From: Kangiella geojedonensis
GTDB lineage: Bacteria > Pseudomonadota > Gammaproteobacteria > Enterobacterales > Kangiellaceae
Length of the DNA stretch: 64,000 bases
NCBI RefSeq assembly: GCF_000981765.1
Contig: NZ_CP010975.1
Span: 868,001-932,000 of the forward strand
Direction: 5' to 3'
The position numbers were made by a program, and so were the translations under genes. Under the pieces are notes generated by a model. The model searched no databases. It was given only the letters and a program-made list of their open reading frames with translations, and was not told the origin of the DNA. This document shows positions 9,441 through 57,344 of the stretch, piece after piece; positions within the stretch are counted from its first letter, which is position 1; each line of letters starts with the position of its first letter.

Positions 9441-9564
9441 AAATAGCTTGTGGCTATAATACCACCGAGTTGAAGAAGGGTGAACCGTTTTATGGCTATT
9501 TACCCAGTAAATAAGTTCATGCTTCTTTAAAACTACAATCATTCGATATAACTACTGACTAATA

Positions 9565-9725
9565 AGGTTCCTTGCGATTAATCGGGAAACCAGTGAGATT
9601 CTGGTACTGCCCCCGCAACGGTAATAAAGAGCGTTACTCCATGGCCACTGAGTAGATACTTGGGAAGGCGGAGTGACTTAGCATGGTATTTTGCTAGAGC
9701 TTTTGAGTCCGGAGACCGGCCCTAT
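9565..9725 (+). promoter_or_regulatory. Cobalamin (AdoCbl) riboswitch
   Basis: The leader of btuB contains the conserved cobalamin riboswitch core in order: an AAGGTTCC start, GGGAA, a central CTGCCCCCGCAACGG block, GCCACTG, TGGGAAGGCGGAGTGA, and the B12-box-like GAGTCCGGAGACCGGCC. This class normally switches off B12 uptake genes when cobalamin is plentiful. A further inverted repeat (TTGAGCA 9732-9738 with TGCTCAA 9753-9759) follows and may be part of the expression platform. The downstream genes btuB, adenosyltransferase and an ECF-S-like protein are consistent with this regulator. Confidence 0.93.
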
Positions 9726-9786
9726 TAGACGTTGAGCAGATCGGTGGGCTCTTGCTCAATATGAAGTGGTTATTAATTTAATGCCC

Positions 9787-48897: not shown

Positions 48898-49043
48898 TGT
48901 TATCAAGGTGAATTTTTGCGTGACTTTTGTCTCAAAAAACGCCAAATTTAGACGATACAAAAAAAATCTGTAACAAATTCAGATATGGTAAGTCTAAGTT
49001 TCTGAATAACTTAACTAAAGTAAGCAATCTAGGAGTAAGTTCT

Positions 49044-49427
49044 ATGTTAAACAAAGACAAGAAAAAATTAGCCGTAATCGTGGGCGCATCAATCGCAGCT
49101 TCTGCTGCAATGGGTACAGCCGTTGCAAATGACAACCCATTCGCGCTAAACGATCTTCAAGCTGGCTACGACCTTGCCAAGTTCGAAGCAGGTGAAGGTA
49201 AGTGCGGCGAAGGCAAGTGTGGTGAAGAGCATGCCAAAGAGCACGAAGGTAAGTGTGGCGAAGGCAAGTGCGGTGAAGGCAAAGCCGAAAAAGAAGGTAA
49301 GTGCGGCGAAGGTAAATGTGGTGAAGGCAAAGCCGAGAAAGAAGGTAAGTGTGGCGAAGGCAAATGCGGTGAAGGAAAAACCGAGAAAGAAGGTAAATGC
49401 GGCGAAGGTAAGTGTGGCGTAGCATAA
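49044..49427 (+). CDS. HvfA/bufferin-like precursor with EGKCG repeats (RiPP-type metallophore)
   Basis: 127 aa. A signal peptide ends with a TAVA/ND cleavage site at about residue 28. After a short spacer, residues 51-125 hold five EGKCGEGKCG blocks separated by EEHAKEH or EGK[AT]EK, giving ten cysteines (54, 59, 71, 76, 87, 92, 103, 108, 119, 124) and no others. EGKCG motifs are substrates of DUF692 MNIO enzymes in the Haemophilus HvfABC and Caulobacter bufferin systems, where Cys residues become copper-binding groups. The matching DUF692 and DUF2063 genes follow. ATG at 49044 has an AGGAG site 10 bp upstream. Confidence 0.88.
   Translation: MLNKDKKKLAVIVGASIAASAAMGTAVANDNPFALNDLQAGYDLAKFEAGEGKCGEGKCGEEHAKEHEGKCGEGKCGEGKAEKEGKCGEGKCGEGKAEKEGKCGEGKCGEGKTEKEGKCGEGKCGVA
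49194..49418 (+). repeat. Tandem coding repeat (about 48-51 bp period) inside the EGKCG precursor
   Basis: Five copies of a block coding EGKCGEGKCG, with period 17 residues once and 16 residues three times. Third-position differences between copies (for example AAGTGCGGC and AAGTGTGGC) show the array is maintained at protein level while drifting in DNA. It is not CRISPR: copies are in frame, contiguous and without unique spacers. Confidence 0.9.
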
Positions 49428-49449
49428 TCTTCTAAGCCTTAAAAAAATA

Positions 49450-49472
49450 GGGTGATGGCTCGTCCATCACCC
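49450..49472. terminator. Strong hairpin between precursor and MNIO genes
   Basis: GGGTGATGG (49450-49458) pairs perfectly with CCATCACCC (49464-49472) around CTCGT. On the plus strand no T run follows, so it is probably a partial terminator or mRNA-stabilising stem giving more precursor than enzyme transcript. On the minus strand a seven-T run follows, so it would be a good terminator there. Confidence 0.6.
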
Positions 49473-49507
49473 ATCCTTCCATTCACTCAACTTTATTAGG
49501 TGATCCT

Positions 49508-50353
49508 TTGTATCCAGTAACAGGTGCAGGACTTGGTTTAAGGCGTGACTTCATGAGAGAGTTTGAAGCGTTAGATGCTTCAAATATAGACTTTATGGAA
49601 GTTGCTCCGGAAAACTGGTTACCTTTTGGCGGGCATTTAGAGCAAGTCTTTGCTCAATATGCCGAGCGATTCCCTTTTGTGATTCATGGCTTGTCCTTAT
49701 CTATTGGCAGCCCTAGCCCTCTTGATACGGCATTTGTAAAAGAAGTGGCAGAGTTTATCAAAAAGTATAATATCCGTTGTTACAGCGAGCACCTAAGTTA
49801 CTGTAGCGATGATGGTCATATGTATGATCTGATGCCGATTCCATTTACCGAAGAAGCGGTACATTATGTTGCGGATCGAATTAAGCAGGTGCAAGACATT
49901 ATTGGTCAGCGGCTCGCGATGGAAAATGTTTCCTACTACGCTGCGCCTGGACAAGAAATGTCCGAATTAGAGTTTTTCAAAGCAGTGGTCGAAGAGGCTG
50001 ACTGTGATATTTTACTCGATATCAACAACATTTATGTCAACAGCATTAATCACAGCTATGATCCTAAAGAATTCCTATTAGCACTACCCAAAAATAGAAT
50101 CGCTTACTCTCATATTGCTGGGCATTATGATGAAGCTGATGATTTAAAAGTAGATACGCATGGTGCCGACGTAAAAGATGATGTTTGGTCATTGCTGGAC
50201 ACTGCTTATGACCATTTTGGAGTATTTCCAACATTGCTTGAGCGTGATTTTAACATTCCAGCGATGCCACAGTTGCTCACTGAAGTGGACAAAATTAAGC
50301 AGTTACAAGATAAGTATAGTAGTAACCATAATCATCAACCAGCGATTGCATAG
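49508..50353 (+). CDS. DUF692 multinuclear iron oxidase (HvfB/BufB/MbnB-like MNIO)
   Basis: 281-aa TIM-barrel enzyme of the MNIO family. Conserved N-terminal GAGLGLRRDF and metal-ligand segments FVIHGLSLSIG, CYSEHLSY, LLDINNIYVN, YSHIAGHYDE and TLLERDF are all present. MNIO enzymes oxidise cysteine residues in precursor peptides; with EGKCG precursors they form copper-binding groups. TTG at 49508 (Shine-Dalgarno-like TTAGGTGA) is chosen because the conserved N-terminus starts there. DUF2063 partner follows after 11 bp. Confidence 0.93.
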   Translation: MYPVTGAGLGLRRDFMREFEALDASNIDFMEVAPENWLPFGGHLEQVFAQYAERFPFVIHGLSLSIGSPSPLDTAFVKEVAEFIKKYNIRCYSEHLSYCSDDGHMYDLMPIPFTEEAVHYVADRIKQVQDIIGQRLAMENVSYYAAPGQEMSELEFFKAVVEEADCDILLDINNIYVNSINHSYDPKEFLLALPKNRIAYSHIAGHYDEADDLKVDTHGADVKDDVWSLLDTAYDHFGVFPTLLERDFNIPAMPQLLTEVDKIKQLQDKYSSNHNHQPAIA

Positions 50354-50364
50354 GGATAATACCT

Positions 50365-51141
50365 ATGGCTCATTCACTACCTAAATTTCAAGAAATCCAA
50401 TACCAGTTTTCAAAGAACCTTCGTAACCCGTCCGAGTTTGAGGCTCCAGATGGCATAGAAGCTCGAAGAATGAAGGTTTATCATGACTTGTTTTATAACA
50501 ACATTGAGAACTTCTGCAAAAATAGCTTCCCAGTATTACGCAAAATCACATCGGATGATAAGTGGCATCGAATGGTTCGTGCTTTCTTTACGGACTTTAG
50601 AGCGGAATCCCCCTACTTTATCGATATATCAAAAGAGTTCTTTGTCTACCTTTCTGAGCATCGAAAGCCTGAGGCCGATGACTTTCCCTTTATGCTGGAA
50701 CTGGCACACTGGGAGTGGATGGAGGTTAAAACGGTGTCAGCAAAAGAGGATATTCTCAAGATACCGCATGAACGGAACGGAGACTTATTCAATGAGCCCG
50801 TTGTAGTGTCGCCGCTAGCTCATAGTCTAGTCTATGAGTATCCGGTGCATAGAATTGGCCCTAGCTATATTCCTGATGAAGCTCCAGAGACGCCAACCTT
50901 CTTAATGATAAGTCGTAATCGCAAGCATAAGGTCGACTTCATGGAGGGGAACTCTATGACTTATCGACTGCTAGATATCTTTATTGAGCATCTACACGAG
51001 GGGCGACAAATAACGGGGAAACAGGCTTTGGAACAACTAATTGACGAAACCAGCTTTCCAAACCCTGAACAATTACTGAATGGCGGGCAACAAATCTTAA
51101 CCAGTTTGCTAGAACGTGACATCATTTTAGGGACTGCCTAA
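50365..51141 (+). CDS. DUF2063 partner protein (HvfC/BufC-like)
   Basis: 258 aa. The N-terminal DUF2063 domain (about 1-105) has LVYHDLFYNNIENFCKNSFPVLRK-type content (starting at MKVYHDLFYNN) and SPYFIDISKEF; the C-terminal domain has the RNRKHKVDFMEG segment. In HvfBC and BufBC pairs it recognises the precursor leader and presents it to the MNIO enzyme. It is directly downstream of the DUF692 gene. Confidence 0.92.
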   Translation: MAHSLPKFQEIQYQFSKNLRNPSEFEAPDGIEARRMKVYHDLFYNNIENFCKNSFPVLRKITSDDKWHRMVRAFFTDFRAESPYFIDISKEFFVYLSEHRKPEADDFPFMLELAHWEWMEVKTVSAKEDILKIPHERNGDLFNEPVVVSPLAHSLVYEYPVHRIGPSYIPDEAPETPTFLMISRNRKHKVDFMEGNSMTYRLLDIFIEHLHEGRQITGKQALEQLIDETSFPNPEQLLNGGQQILTSLLERDIILGTA

Positions 51142-54313: not shown

Positions 54314-54586
54314 AACCAACCTCGCTCAATGTTATGTGTCGCTTATCCAGACTAAAAGCGTAGCAACTATTGTCGTTGGCTGTTTCTATAAGAACGGTGG
54401 CTAGTGGGTAATTATCTCGGCTAGGGAATATTGGAATCGGTGGCTAGGGCTAATGATTTTGTCGGCTAAAAGGCGTAATGCCATACAGTTAAAATCTACC
54501 ACTATGTAAAAAATAGTAGCATAATGCGTTGAAATCTGTAGTATTTATGGTTGCGCAAATAATAAATAACTAATGTGGGGACCAAT

Positions 54587-54805
54587 ATGTCAACTTTAAA
54601 CAAGTTCTTAACCGAGCTAGGTACTAACGCTAAATTACTGGAAGACTACAAAGCAGAGCCTGTTGCGACAATGAAAGCTGCGGGTTTAAATAGTGATGAA
54701 ATTGATGCTGTTCAACATGCCAATATTGCTAAAGTGAAGGAATTGATAGGTGATGGGGGAGAGTATCCAGTTGTTGTTCATAATGTAAAAGAGCATAACT
54801 TGTAA
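54587..54805 (+). CDS. SonA-like split-borosin precursor peptide
   Basis: 72 aa. Residues 1-56 (STLNKFLTELGTNAKLLEDY, then AGLNSDEIDAVQHAN) form a LigA-like helical borosin-binding domain as in the SonA precursor of Shewanella. Residues about 57-72 (GGEYPVVVHNVKEHNL) form a short tail rich in Val, the likely core for backbone N-methylation. The matching methyltransferase is at 56538. ATG at 54587 has GGGGA 6 bp upstream; the GTG at 54575 is less likely. No core residue can be named as methylated from sequence. Confidence 0.82.
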   Translation: MSTLNKFLTELGTNAKLLEDYKAEPVATMKAAGLNSDEIDAVQHANIAKVKELIGDGGEYPVVVHNVKEHNL

Positions 54806-54812
54806 TTTTCAG

Positions 54813-56531
54813 GTGAAGAAGCTTGCATTAATTCTGGTTCTGCTTTTAGTATTCGACTTGGCAAATGCGGATATTGAACAGGACCTAAAGCTACTAAGGG
54901 AAAGCAACACGAGTGACTCCAGTCAAGCCTTTCGCTTGATACAGGATCTACAAAGTCGGTGGGACGAGTTTGAAAGTGACGAGCAAAAAGCACGATTTTA
55001 TATTCAAGAATCGTATTTCCATATACTGAAATCCGAGAGTCAAAAAGCAAAAAGACCCTTAAGATTACTGTTACAGCTAGCGGATGTGTCTGAGGACTCG
55101 AGGCTAGCTGCATATTCTTTGCTGTCTCAAATTTACATGAGTCTGAATGAGTATCAGAAGGCTTTTAATTATCTGTTTGACGGCTTGTCAATAACGCCTA
55201 AGATTAAAGACCAATCCTTACAGTTTAACTCTTACTATGCTGCAGCGAATGTGTTTGTAGAGCTAGAGGCTTTTGATGAGGCTTTAGAATATGTCCACAA
55301 AGCAAACGAAATCGCAGTAGCCATGAGCGACAACCGAAATCAATGCTATGCTAAGGCATTAGTGGCTAATATATTTTTAAGCCAAGATAATAGTCTAAAC
55401 CACGAGGAGCGACTTAAAGAAGTCATTAATTATTGTAAAGGTTTAAACTTATTGGTGATTGATGCTCATCTTTACAAAAGCTTAGCAAAAAATTATTTTA
55501 ACCATGGCTTATTAGAAAAATCTGAGCTTTCTTACATCAGAGCATTAAAAATATCCGCTAATAACGGCTATCTCCCGGATGTTTTGCAAATCAAACTTGG
55601 CTTGGCTCGGGTGTATTTAGAGACCGGAGAGTTGGAGAAGGCTAAAGTACATATTGATGAGGTTTTAGAAGAAACTGCAATACGAGAGTCTGGAGTGAAT
55701 AGAAGGGATGCTACTGAGCTGCTGGCAAAGTATTATGAAAAGAATAGTAACCCTGTCGAAGCTAATAAAGCACTATCCCAGCTTGTTCAAATTCAGGATG
55801 AGATGCTTGCAGATCAAGCAAATAAAAATCTCGCTTACCAGAAAGTTAAATATTCACACTTAGATCAAAATGCTCAGATCCAAATTTTAGATCAAAAAAA
55901 CAAATTGTTAGCACTGACATCACAAGTAGAAGAACAGTCAAAACGAAACTTTCAGCTACTTTTAGTCATTGTATTAATTGTACTAACGGGAATTAGCTTA
56001 TGGTTTTGGCGTGTTAAAAAGCAAAAAGAACGTTACCAAAGACTTTCACAAATAGACGCGCTAACAAACACCTTAAATCGCAGGTACGCACTAAAACTGG
56101 CTCACGAAATTCACCAAAACAGCCTGATTAATAATAGTCACTACTGCGTCATAATTTTTGATTTGGATTACTTCAAAACAATCAATGATCGCTTTGGCCA
56201 TGCAATGGGTGACTGGGTATTGAAGAAAGTGAGCGACTGTGTGAAGGGGAGAATGCGTTCTGTAGATGTGTTTGGAAGGCTCGGAGGCGAAGAGTTTATC
56301 GTTATTTTACCTCAGTGTACGAGTGATGACGCTAAAAAGTTCATTGAGCGTTGCGCTGAAGCTTTTAAAGAGATTGAGCATGCGAAATTACCGACTAACT
56401 TCCAAGTTACCGCAAGTTTTGGGGTGGCAGCAAAGCAAAACGGGGAATCTCTAGAAGAGCTGATCATAGAAGCTGATAACGCCATGTATCAAGCTAAAAG
56501 AAATGGTAGAAATCAGACCCAGGTGTATTAA
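54813..56531 (+). CDS. TPR-containing diguanylate cyclase
   Basis: 572 aa, GTG start 7 bp after the precursor stop. A signal peptide (about 1-20) leads to a periplasmic region of TPR-like helical repeats (about 60-330). A coiled coil and one transmembrane helix (about 388-405) follow, then a cytoplasmic GGDEF domain (about 420-572) with RLGGEEFIVIL. An RSVD inhibitory-site motif lies five residues upstream of GGEEF. It should synthesise cyclic di-GMP with product inhibition. It is sandwiched between the borosin precursor and methyltransferase genes. Confidence 0.93.
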   Translation: MKKLALILVLLLVFDLANADIEQDLKLLRESNTSDSSQAFRLIQDLQSRWDEFESDEQKARFYIQESYFHILKSESQKAKRPLRLLLQLADVSEDSRLAAYSLLSQIYMSLNEYQKAFNYLFDGLSITPKIKDQSLQFNSYYAAANVFVELEAFDEALEYVHKANEIAVAMSDNRNQCYAKALVANIFLSQDNSLNHEERLKEVINYCKGLNLLVIDAHLYKSLAKNYFNHGLLEKSELSYIRALKISANNGYLPDVLQIKLGLARVYLETGELEKAKVHIDEVLEETAIRESGVNRRDATELLAKYYEKNSNPVEANKALSQLVQIQDEMLADQANKNLAYQKVKYSHLDQNAQIQILDQKNKLLALTSQVEEQSKRNFQLLLVIVLIVLTGISLWFWRVKKQKERYQRLSQIDALTNTLNRRYALKLAHEIHQNSLINNSHYCVIIFDLDYFKTINDRFGHAMGDWVLKKVSDCVKGRMRSVDVFGRLGGEEFIVILPQCTSDDAKKFIERCAEAFKEIEHAKLPTNFQVTASFGVAAKQNGESLEELIIEADNAMYQAKRNGRNQTQVY

Positions 56532-56537
56532 GATATT

Positions 56538-57344
56538 TTGAATACTAACAATAAAACCTCAACAGGCTCTTTAACCTGCATCGGTACAGGGATCACCTTA
56601 GCCGGCCAAATCACAACCTTATCAAAGAACTATCTTGAAGAGGCTGAAAGTGTTTTCGGTATTTTGCCGGATAAACTTTCTGAAGACTGGGTTAAATCGC
56701 TCAATCCCTCCTATGAAAGTTTGCAATATTTGTATGCCGAGGGAAAATCTCGCCGCCAAACCTACCAGGACATGACTGAAGTGGTCTGCCAGGCTGTACG
56801 TGATGGTAAGAAAGTGGTGCTGGCGCTTTATGGACATCCAGGGATTTTTGCATGTGTTGGTCATTTTGCAATTGAACGGTTGATTGGCGAGGGTTATCCC
56901 GCCCAGATGCTCCCCGGAGTCTCTGCTGATGCTTGTCTTTACGCCGACCTAGGCTTCGACCCAGGTACTACCGGTTGCCAAGCTTATGAGGCGACTCAGT
57001 TTTTATTCAGTGGTGTTCCTCTTAACACTTCAGCTTATACCATTTTATGGCAAATCGGTCTTGCTGGAGAGCACACGCTAAAAACGTTCAAAACCACGGC
57101 ACAAAACCTTGAAGCGTCCGTTCGGATTTTAAATAAGTGGTATCCGCTTGAGCATGAGATGATTTTATACGAGGCGCCGTTTATACCAGTGCAAAAACCA
57201 CGAATTGATAGGTTCATGCTAAAGGACCTGCCTAAAATGGACATAACGTCTATTTCAACACTCGTGATTCCGCCTTTGACAGGATTAAAATTAGACAAAA
57301 ATGCTTTAGATGAGTTTGGATTGGATATTAAGGATTTCGGATAA
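56538..57344 (+). CDS. SonM-like borosin alpha-N-methyltransferase
   Basis: 268 aa, tetrapyrrole-methylase fold. Features are GSLTCIGTGITLAGQITTLS at the N-terminus, VVLALYGHPGIFACVGH (SAM pocket), LPGVSADACLYADLGFDPG, and IGLAGEHTLKTF. These match the class to which the split borosin enzyme SonM belongs rather than CobA/CysG methylases. It would N-methylate amide bonds of the SonA-like peptide using SAM. TTG at 56538 is the only plausible start; no Shine-Dalgarno was seen, and coupling to the upstream gene is possible. Confidence 0.85.
   Translation: MNTNNKTSTGSLTCIGTGITLAGQITTLSKNYLEEAESVFGILPDKLSEDWVKSLNPSYESLQYLYAEGKSRRQTYQDMTEVVCQAVRDGKKVVLALYGHPGIFACVGHFAIERLIGEGYPAQMLPGVSADACLYADLGFDPGTTGCQAYEATQFLFSGVPLNTSAYTILWQIGLAGEHTLKTFKTTAQNLEASVRILNKWYPLEHEMILYEAPFIPVQKPRIDRFMLKDLPKMDITSISTLVIPPLTGLKLDKNALDEFGLDIKDFG

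Follow-up and report, generated by a model that had tools for sequence, protein, structure and literature searches.

Introduction

What would a backbone-methylated peptide do for the bacterium that makes it, when a gene for a membrane-bound signalling protein stands between its precursor and its modifying enzyme? This question is raised by three consecutive + strand genes of Kangiella geojedonensis at positions 54587-57344 of the window, the 64-kb stretch analysed here from a genome that consists of a single contig of 2,495,242 bases. A reading-frame check gives proteins of 72, 572 and 268 amino acids, discussed below as borosin precursor, TPR-GGDEF membrane protein and peptide α-N-methyltransferase. 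The genes are separated by 7 and then 6 nucleotides, and because these gaps are so short and all three genes lie on the + strand, they likely form one transcription unit. A first, sequence-only reading of this DNA had described the 72-residue precursor and the methyltransferase with its TTG start just as they are found here, and its placement of the pair in one transcription unit is likely correct.

The methyltransferase and its precursor

The third gene (56538..57344, + strand) encodes a 268-residue, TTG-started protein that homology to SonM and OphMA/dbOphM identifies as a SonM-type peptide α-N-methyltransferase. Its best match among PDB chains is SonM (7ltc_A, phmmer E=1.7e-85), with 131 of 259 aligned residues identical (50.6%), and the fungal OphMA/dbOphM/MroMA-type enzymes are matched at E ~1e-41 to 1e-45. 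Six SonM residues that are discussed in PMC8429565 (Y58, R67, Y71, Y93, F99 and W166) are kept as Y66, R72, Y76, Y98, F104 and W171, and 13 of the 17 SonM positions compared are identical. The enzyme of Kangiella taiwanensis (locus L005) is 92% identical to the window enzyme. The stop codon of the 572-residue gene and the TTG start share a frame, with 6 nucleotides between them, and at four other loci (L042, L045, L046 and L051) an ATG lies close to the equivalent position. The SonM-type methylase core of the sequence-only reading is therefore well founded.

The enzyme also matches Pfam TP_methylase (2.9e-16), a family common to it and the tetrapyrrole methylases, which would leave room for a CobA/CysG-type enzyme beside an unrelated small protein. 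This alternative is hardly credible. The best PDB chain outside the borosin enzymes, 2ybo, listed only as METHYLTRANSFERASE and presumably the tetrapyrrole enzyme NirE, reaches E=7.9e-4, so that the SonM match is better by about 80 orders of magnitude. All NCBIfam tetrapyrrole models listed lie far below their cut-offs (TIGR01469 at 17.4 bits against a cut-off of 185), and a SonA-type precursor is encoded within the methyltransferase's own transcription unit. A CobA/CysG-type methylase was rejected on these grounds.

The first gene (54587..54805, + strand; ATG at 54587, stop at 54805) encodes a SonA-type borosin precursor of 72 residues, which ends in GGEYPVVVHNVKEHNL; an alternative GTG start at 54575 would make it four residues longer. 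The protein matches the SonA chain 8t1s_B (phmmer E=6.5e-12), so both members of the pair find the expected relatives when searched against SonA/SonM and OphMA. The AlphaFold2 model has helices at residues 3-13, 15-23, 25-32, 36-43 and 47-54, a mean pLDDT of 77.5 and a tail of low confidence. In a Foldseek search with this model the best 30 rows are all SonM-SonA entries, with TM-scores by query of 0.60-0.73; their modest E-values (1e-3 to 0.06) reflect the shortness of the chain. Residues 3-54 are predicted to form the five-helix borosin binding domain (BBD), or leader; in SonA the leader is a five-helix bundle of residues 1-53 (PMC8429565). Such a domain had already been proposed from the letters of the sequence, and homology and model agree with it.

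Residues 55-72 (GDGGEYPVVVHNVKEHNL; 54749..54802, + strand) align with the ...YLVISH region of SonA and form the predicted core. SonA is methylated at L63 and I65, according to the Discussion of PMC8429565. Our first phmmer alignment, in which the SonA chain carries a QSY deletion in the linker, places P61 at SonA L63, V62 at V64 and V63 at I65. Since proline lacks the amide N-H needed for N-methylation, α-N-methylation would most likely fall within V62-V64 (54770..54778, + strand). An α-N-methylated peptide from the Val-rich tail, as first suggested, is thus the likely product by homology, with these valines as better candidates than P61. Codon differences from four close relatives number 16 synonymous and 2 non-synonymous in the tail, which also has 2 one-codon gaps, against 69 synonymous and 31 non-synonymous in the leader; this is suggestive only (Fisher p=0.095, with comparisons that are not independent). 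The tail end hardly varies among the five species compared, reading EYPVVVHNVKEHNL or EYAVVVHNVKEHNL.

The pair is almost certainly a split borosin, and the locus adds a new member to the type IV split borosins: the enzyme belongs to the SonM/OphMA family, the precursor is separately encoded, and a five-helix binding domain is predicted, with backbone α-N-methylation of the core tail predicted by homology. The fungal borosins OphMA/dbOphMA and MroMA have a homologous methyltransferase domain, but there the precursor is fused to the enzyme, whereas in the window it is a separate protein. The closest described system is SonM/SonA of Shewanella oneidensis MR-1 (type IV), which likewise consists of a separate methyltransferase and a BBD precursor. 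Among our loci, the L135 enzyme matches SonM at 100% identity over 262 residues, and the L135 precursor does not differ from SonA in the part of SonA aligned; here a TPR-GGDEF gene directly follows the precursor gene, as it does in the window, and the same three genes are present at the Shewanella loci L007-L009. The methyltransferase gene comes first in Shewanella and last in the window, and the SonA tail reads SYLVISHGNGD where the window tail has EYPVVVHNVKEHNL. The window locus is therefore a variant of the described Shewanella three-gene cluster that differs in gene order and tail. Both tail and intervening gene had been thought to set it apart; this holds for the tail, while the middle gene as a peculiarity of the window was rejected, the same gene being found after sonA in L135 and also in L007-L009.

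The TPR-GGDEF membrane protein

The sequence-only reading missed that the middle gene joins TPR repeats to a GGDEF domain and so undersold what is the most informative part of the locus. The 572-residue protein (54813..56531, + strand), which we propose as the receptor of the peptide, matches Pfam GGDEF (2.6e-41) and TPR_2 (2e-8). Hydropathy indicates an N-terminal, signal-like hydrophobic segment at residues 1-23 and a predicted transmembrane segment at residues 376-402 (55938..56018, + strand; best 19-residue Kyte-Doolittle mean 2.54). Between them lies the TPR sensor region, about residues 21-313 (54873..55751, + strand), which the model builds as helical pairs and which is predicted to be periplasmic. 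The model as a whole (mean pLDDT 91.5) has repeats to residue 310, a long helix at 314-413 and then the cyclase. The protein therefore combines an apparent signal sequence, TPR repeats, one membrane helix and an intact GGDEF motif, signal and helix being called by hydropathy only. The topology suggested by hydropathy would place the TPR part outside the inner membrane and the cyclase inside.

The diguanylate cyclase domain (residues 413-568; 56049..56516, + strand) is recognised by Pfam, by its motif and by Foldseek matches to SiaD, WspR and other cyclases. Its motif line, RSVD-VFGRL-GGEEF, has the RxxD pattern of an inhibitory site five residues upstream of an intact GGEEF, the active-site motif, so that homology supports a cyclase whose motif is intact. 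Of the 33 GGDEF-bearing proteins listed, 29 have GGEEF, which is not seen in the four at L012 and L084. A Foldseek search with the whole TPR-GGDEF model returned cyclase-containing entries in the best 50 rows and was uninformative on the TPR part. In an alignment of the window protein with 58 of 85 non-redundant homologues, C178 and C208 of the TPR part are invariant in all 59 sequences, which would suit a periplasmic disulphide.

TPR proteins across borosin loci

The set of 133 loci used to follow the middle gene comprises the matches from 41 genomes (minus one contig-end fragment and one weak match), all new matches from the class and phylum samples, 40 of the 92 match rows from a Shewanella-like sample, and the remaining rows of an order sample minus three. 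The Shewanella-like sample consists of 77 genomes of one genus, taken as Shewanella because L135 falls there; the order, class and phylum samples include the K. geojedonensis genome. At E<=1e-30 the methyltransferase was found in 67/77 Shewanella-like genomes, 37/148 of the order sample, 10/369 of the class sample and 15/398 of the phylum sample. All 20 Kangiella genomes searched have it, 13 of them with two matches.

A locus was scored as having a TPR partner if it encodes, on the strand of a methyltransferase gene and no more than 2.5 kb away from it, a protein of the TPR family. By this rule 123 of the 133 loci have such a partner, and they cover 16 of 23 taxonomic groups (6 genera of Kangiella's own family and 10 other families); an earlier count, which considered the central enzyme only and accepted plain GGDEF proteins, gave 122. 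The same rule applied to the opposite strand found a TPR-family protein at 1/133 loci and a plain GGDEF protein at 1/133. A BBD precursor was found at 112/133 loci, with a profile that is short and may miss some; the precursor match at L172, a 489-residue overlapping frame, is doubtful. Gene order varies while the set is kept, with BBD-TPR-methyltransferase, methyltransferase-BBD-TPR and BBD-methyltransferase-TPR arrangements, and the order of the window (BBD, TPR-GGDEF, methyltransferase) recurs in other families (L084, L167, L168, L171, L173 and L175).

The output of the partner is less constant. The linked loci divide into 91 with a GGDEF output, 14 with a long TPR protein without GGDEF match, and 18 with TPR-only proteins. 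Long TPR proteins without a GGDEF match number 16, and the 11 scanned carry HATPase_c (11/11) and HisKA (10/11), some with receiver or Hpt domains as well; one of the 11, from L079, is recognised as TPR by our own profile only and not by Pfam. TPR-only proteins, as at the second locus of K. geojedonensis itself (L003), begin with a signal-like segment and have no further membrane segment. Because the TPR part persists where the output is swapped for a histidine kinase or lost, it is the TPR sensor, and not cyclic di-GMP (c-di-GMP) synthesis, that stays with the borosin pair across these sequences.

This second split-borosin module (146030-149538 of the genome, 6031-9539 of L003) encodes a BBD precursor with the tail TKAVCINIVMLMKDDK, a SonM-type enzyme 47% identical to that of the window, and two TPR-only proteins, with no GGDEF. 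The TPR region of the window protein has three other matches in its own genome, of which two are the TPR-only genes of this module and the third is weak. In the 41 genomes, the best TPR match is at E<=9.2e-28 wherever a methyltransferase is present (30 genomes), and the 11 without the enzyme have no match or one at E>=3.2e-16; outside Kangiella the same split separates 10 genomes with the methyltransferase from 11 without (p=2.8e-6). A methyltransferase is found within 6 kb of 62 of the 64 TPR matches at E<=1e-40 and of 69 of the 89 at E<=1e-20.

Some loci have an unusual composition. At L087 (6137-10132) two tandem methyltransferase genes accompany one precursor and a TPR histidine kinase, and at L145 and L148 two consecutive BBD precursor genes lie between the methyltransferase and the TPR-GGDEF gene. 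L116 (3540-7064) has a SonM-family domain near the N-terminus of a 1174-residue frame whose remainder has no Pfam match at E<=0.01; this could be a genuine fusion or an open frame owed to high GC content. A 267-residue open reading frame beside a distant methyltransferase (L105, 6782-7585) has no Pfam match at E<=0.01, and its start resembles the binding domain by eye. The orphan TPR-only genes of this family at L177-L180 have no precursor or methyltransferase in the 9-10 kb of sequence covered at each.

Proposed function of the peptide

We lean, by a little, towards the methylated peptide being the ligand of the neighbouring TPR receptor. The steps that we infer, from methylation and its sites through cleavage, export and binding to the direction of the signal, would run as follows. 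The methyltransferase would bind the five-helix leader of the 72-residue precursor in the cytosol, homology supporting both enzyme and leader, and methylate backbone amides in the Val-rich tail. The matured tail would be released and leave the cytosol by a step not encoded at the locus. In the periplasm it would be bound by the TPR domain of the membrane protein, and binding would make the linked diguanylate cyclase more or less active, with c-di-GMP levels changing accordingly.

Known systems offer partial parallels. RRNPP receptors have TPR repeats. They may serve as an analogy from Gram-positives, as repeat-domain receptors that read a peptide signal, and no membership is claimed; they are cytoplasmic regulators, whereas the window protein is a predicted membrane protein from a family with GGDEF or kinase outputs and a proposed backbone-methylated ligand. 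No chain with an RRNPP name (Rap, Rgg, NprR, PlcR or PrgX) is among the 42 PDB matches of the TPR region at E<=1, which are generic TPR proteins. Control of a cyclase through a TPR domain is plausible because the TPR domain of RcbB, a TPR-GGDEF protein of Vibrio vulnificus, represses its cyclase, and because most TPR studies described there concern binding of peptide motifs or protein regions (PMC12282931). The same source mentions two diguanylate cyclases of V. parahaemolyticus with predicted periplasmic TPR domains. RcbB differs in that its partner is another TPR protein, RcbA, and in its localisation to the flagellar pole (PMC12282931), a paper from which the term RiPP (ribosomally synthesized and post-translationally modified peptide) is absent.

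Several observations weigh against a receptor for the peptide. No export or cleavage gene was recognised at the locus, and the precursor has no signal sequence. Ten of the 133 loci have no TPR partner, namely L056 (on a 5.9-kb contig), L106, L172 and seven single-locus groups, whose enzymes score lowest in the class and phylum samples. TPR-only versions are without membrane segment or output domain, and some lie away from any methyltransferase; orphan TPR proteins with no precursor or methyltransferase nearby occur in 8 regions. The K. geojedonensis genome has three more weak TPR profile matches outside both modules (E 6e-16 to 2e-17). The charges of tail and TPR part correlate with inconsistent signs in three classes (rho -0.27, n=77, p=0.019; -0.52, n=14, p=0.056; +0.51, n=18, p=0.030), and charge complementarity was for this reason not used as support. 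Distance correlations over 46 loci are 0.41 for precursor and TPR part, 0.30 for precursor and GGDEF, and 0.44 for precursor and methyltransferase. The TPR profile is biased towards borosin-linked proteins, from which it was made. Nor are the loci independent of one another, and Kangiella and Shewanella dominate the set.

Operon mates need not interact, and the TPR-GGDEF protein might sense something other than the peptide, timing the cluster or another process and being inherited with the split borosin pair through their common operon. C-di-GMP enzymes are common, with 17 GGDEF matches in this genome, peptide binding by the TPR part is an inference, and the charge and distance comparisons gave no clear signal. 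We consider this explanation unlikely, though it deserves attention, as the retention of the TPR part where the output becomes a histidine kinase or disappears argues that the sensor goes with the borosin. The peptide might instead be released as an antibiotic, a metal-binding compound or another effector, with the TPR protein sensing its effect, aiding its export or protecting the producer. Backbone methylation confers structural constraint and membrane permeability (PMC8429565), and the two TPR-only proteins of the second module could act in binding or protection. The near-constant tail end of the five species is unlike many diversifying toxins, and the GGDEF and kinase outputs suggest signalling, which makes a released effector quite improbable.

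If the peptide is indeed the ligand of the TPR receptor, this would add a class of modified peptide signals in Gram-negatives, wired to c-di-GMP or two-component output. With a receptor-like gene in the cluster, peptide function becomes directly testable, by asking which peptide switches the cyclase or the kinase.

Acidic-tail loci and their protease

A subset of loci encodes precursors with acidic tails, defined here as a net charge of -5 or lower, a cut chosen after the tails had been seen; many of them read like VCPDVVCVLLPAED... Many such loci have upstream genes for a GNAT acetyltransferase and for an aspartic protease of the pepsin type, which in L144 matches Pfam Asp at 4.1e-16. At L144, L153, L112 and further loci these genes precede the methyltransferase by about 1.8-2.7 kb. 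All 25 protease matches and 22 of 24 acetyltransferase matches are on the methyltransferase strand. Among 109 loci with an assigned precursor, which are not independent of each other, the protease occurs at 21/34 acidic-tail loci against 0/75 others and the acetyltransferase at 20/34 against 1/75, the exception being L059, which has two modules. The four other protease loci have no assigned precursor. Family Asp is present in 20 of the 77 Shewanella-like genomes, and in all 20 a borosin methyltransferase gene is found on the same strand no farther than 2.6 kb away, measured from start to start; this exclusive neighbourhood in the sample provides a candidate substrate for these proteases.

Shewasins A and D are Pfam Asp proteins like the borosin-linked proteases, a likeness at family level only (PMC4814920). 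Shewasin D, the pepsin homologue of S. denitrificans, is described there as mainly cytosolic, which by analogy is the location that a RiPP maturation protease would need, and the role of the Shewanella pepsin homologues is a matter of speculation in the relevant passages of that paper. The window locus has neither a pepsin homologue nor an acetyltransferase gene. The K. geojedonensis genome gave no Pfam Asp match in a search whose 14 controls were unmatched too, yet the same family search was positive in 20/77 Shewanella-like genomes; a pepsin homologue as maturation protease of the window locus was accordingly rejected.

A broader generalisation seems possible, although we hold it only tentatively: SonM-type split borosins would be backbone-methylated peptide signals of Gram-negatives, each cluster having its own TPR receptor, and the acidic branch would be finished by a cytosolic pepsin homologue and a GNAT acetyltransferase. 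The receptor output would then be exchangeable between a diguanylate cyclase, a histidine kinase and a soluble TPR protein alone. Such a system would be a functional counterpart of the Gram-positive peptide receptors and would give the bacterial pepsins a job.

According to the Discussion of PMC8429565, no final product had been assigned to any split-borosin pathway by 2021. The open-access literature searched shows, among the matches listed, no link of borosins to TPR receptors, histidine kinases or pepsin homologues, which is weak evidence of absence. A later report, going by its title, is said to describe a bacterial borosin product. The legend to Figure 1 in PMC11395268 names a GGDEF-containing domain among borosin architectures; the connection to GGDEF has thus at least been hinted at in print and is not counted as new here. 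What we put forward as new, in the sense that it was not found in the literature searched, is the receptor reading, the exchange of outputs and the pepsin link.

Other features of the window

A promoter scan at the borosin locus gave 9 sites against 7.1 in shuffled sequences, with none on the + strand ahead of the precursor, and for promoters and terminators together the shuffles did equally well. At Rfam gathering scores neither a c-di-GMP riboswitch nor any other RNA was found at this locus.

A second RiPP-type locus lies about 3.5 kb upstream (48927-51141). It encodes a Cys-rich repeat protein (EGKCGEGKCGE), an HvfB-family MNIO maturase (49508-50353) and HvfC (50365-51141). Elsewhere in the window, a cobalamin riboswitch is present at 9548-9738 (Rfam RF00174, 106 bits).

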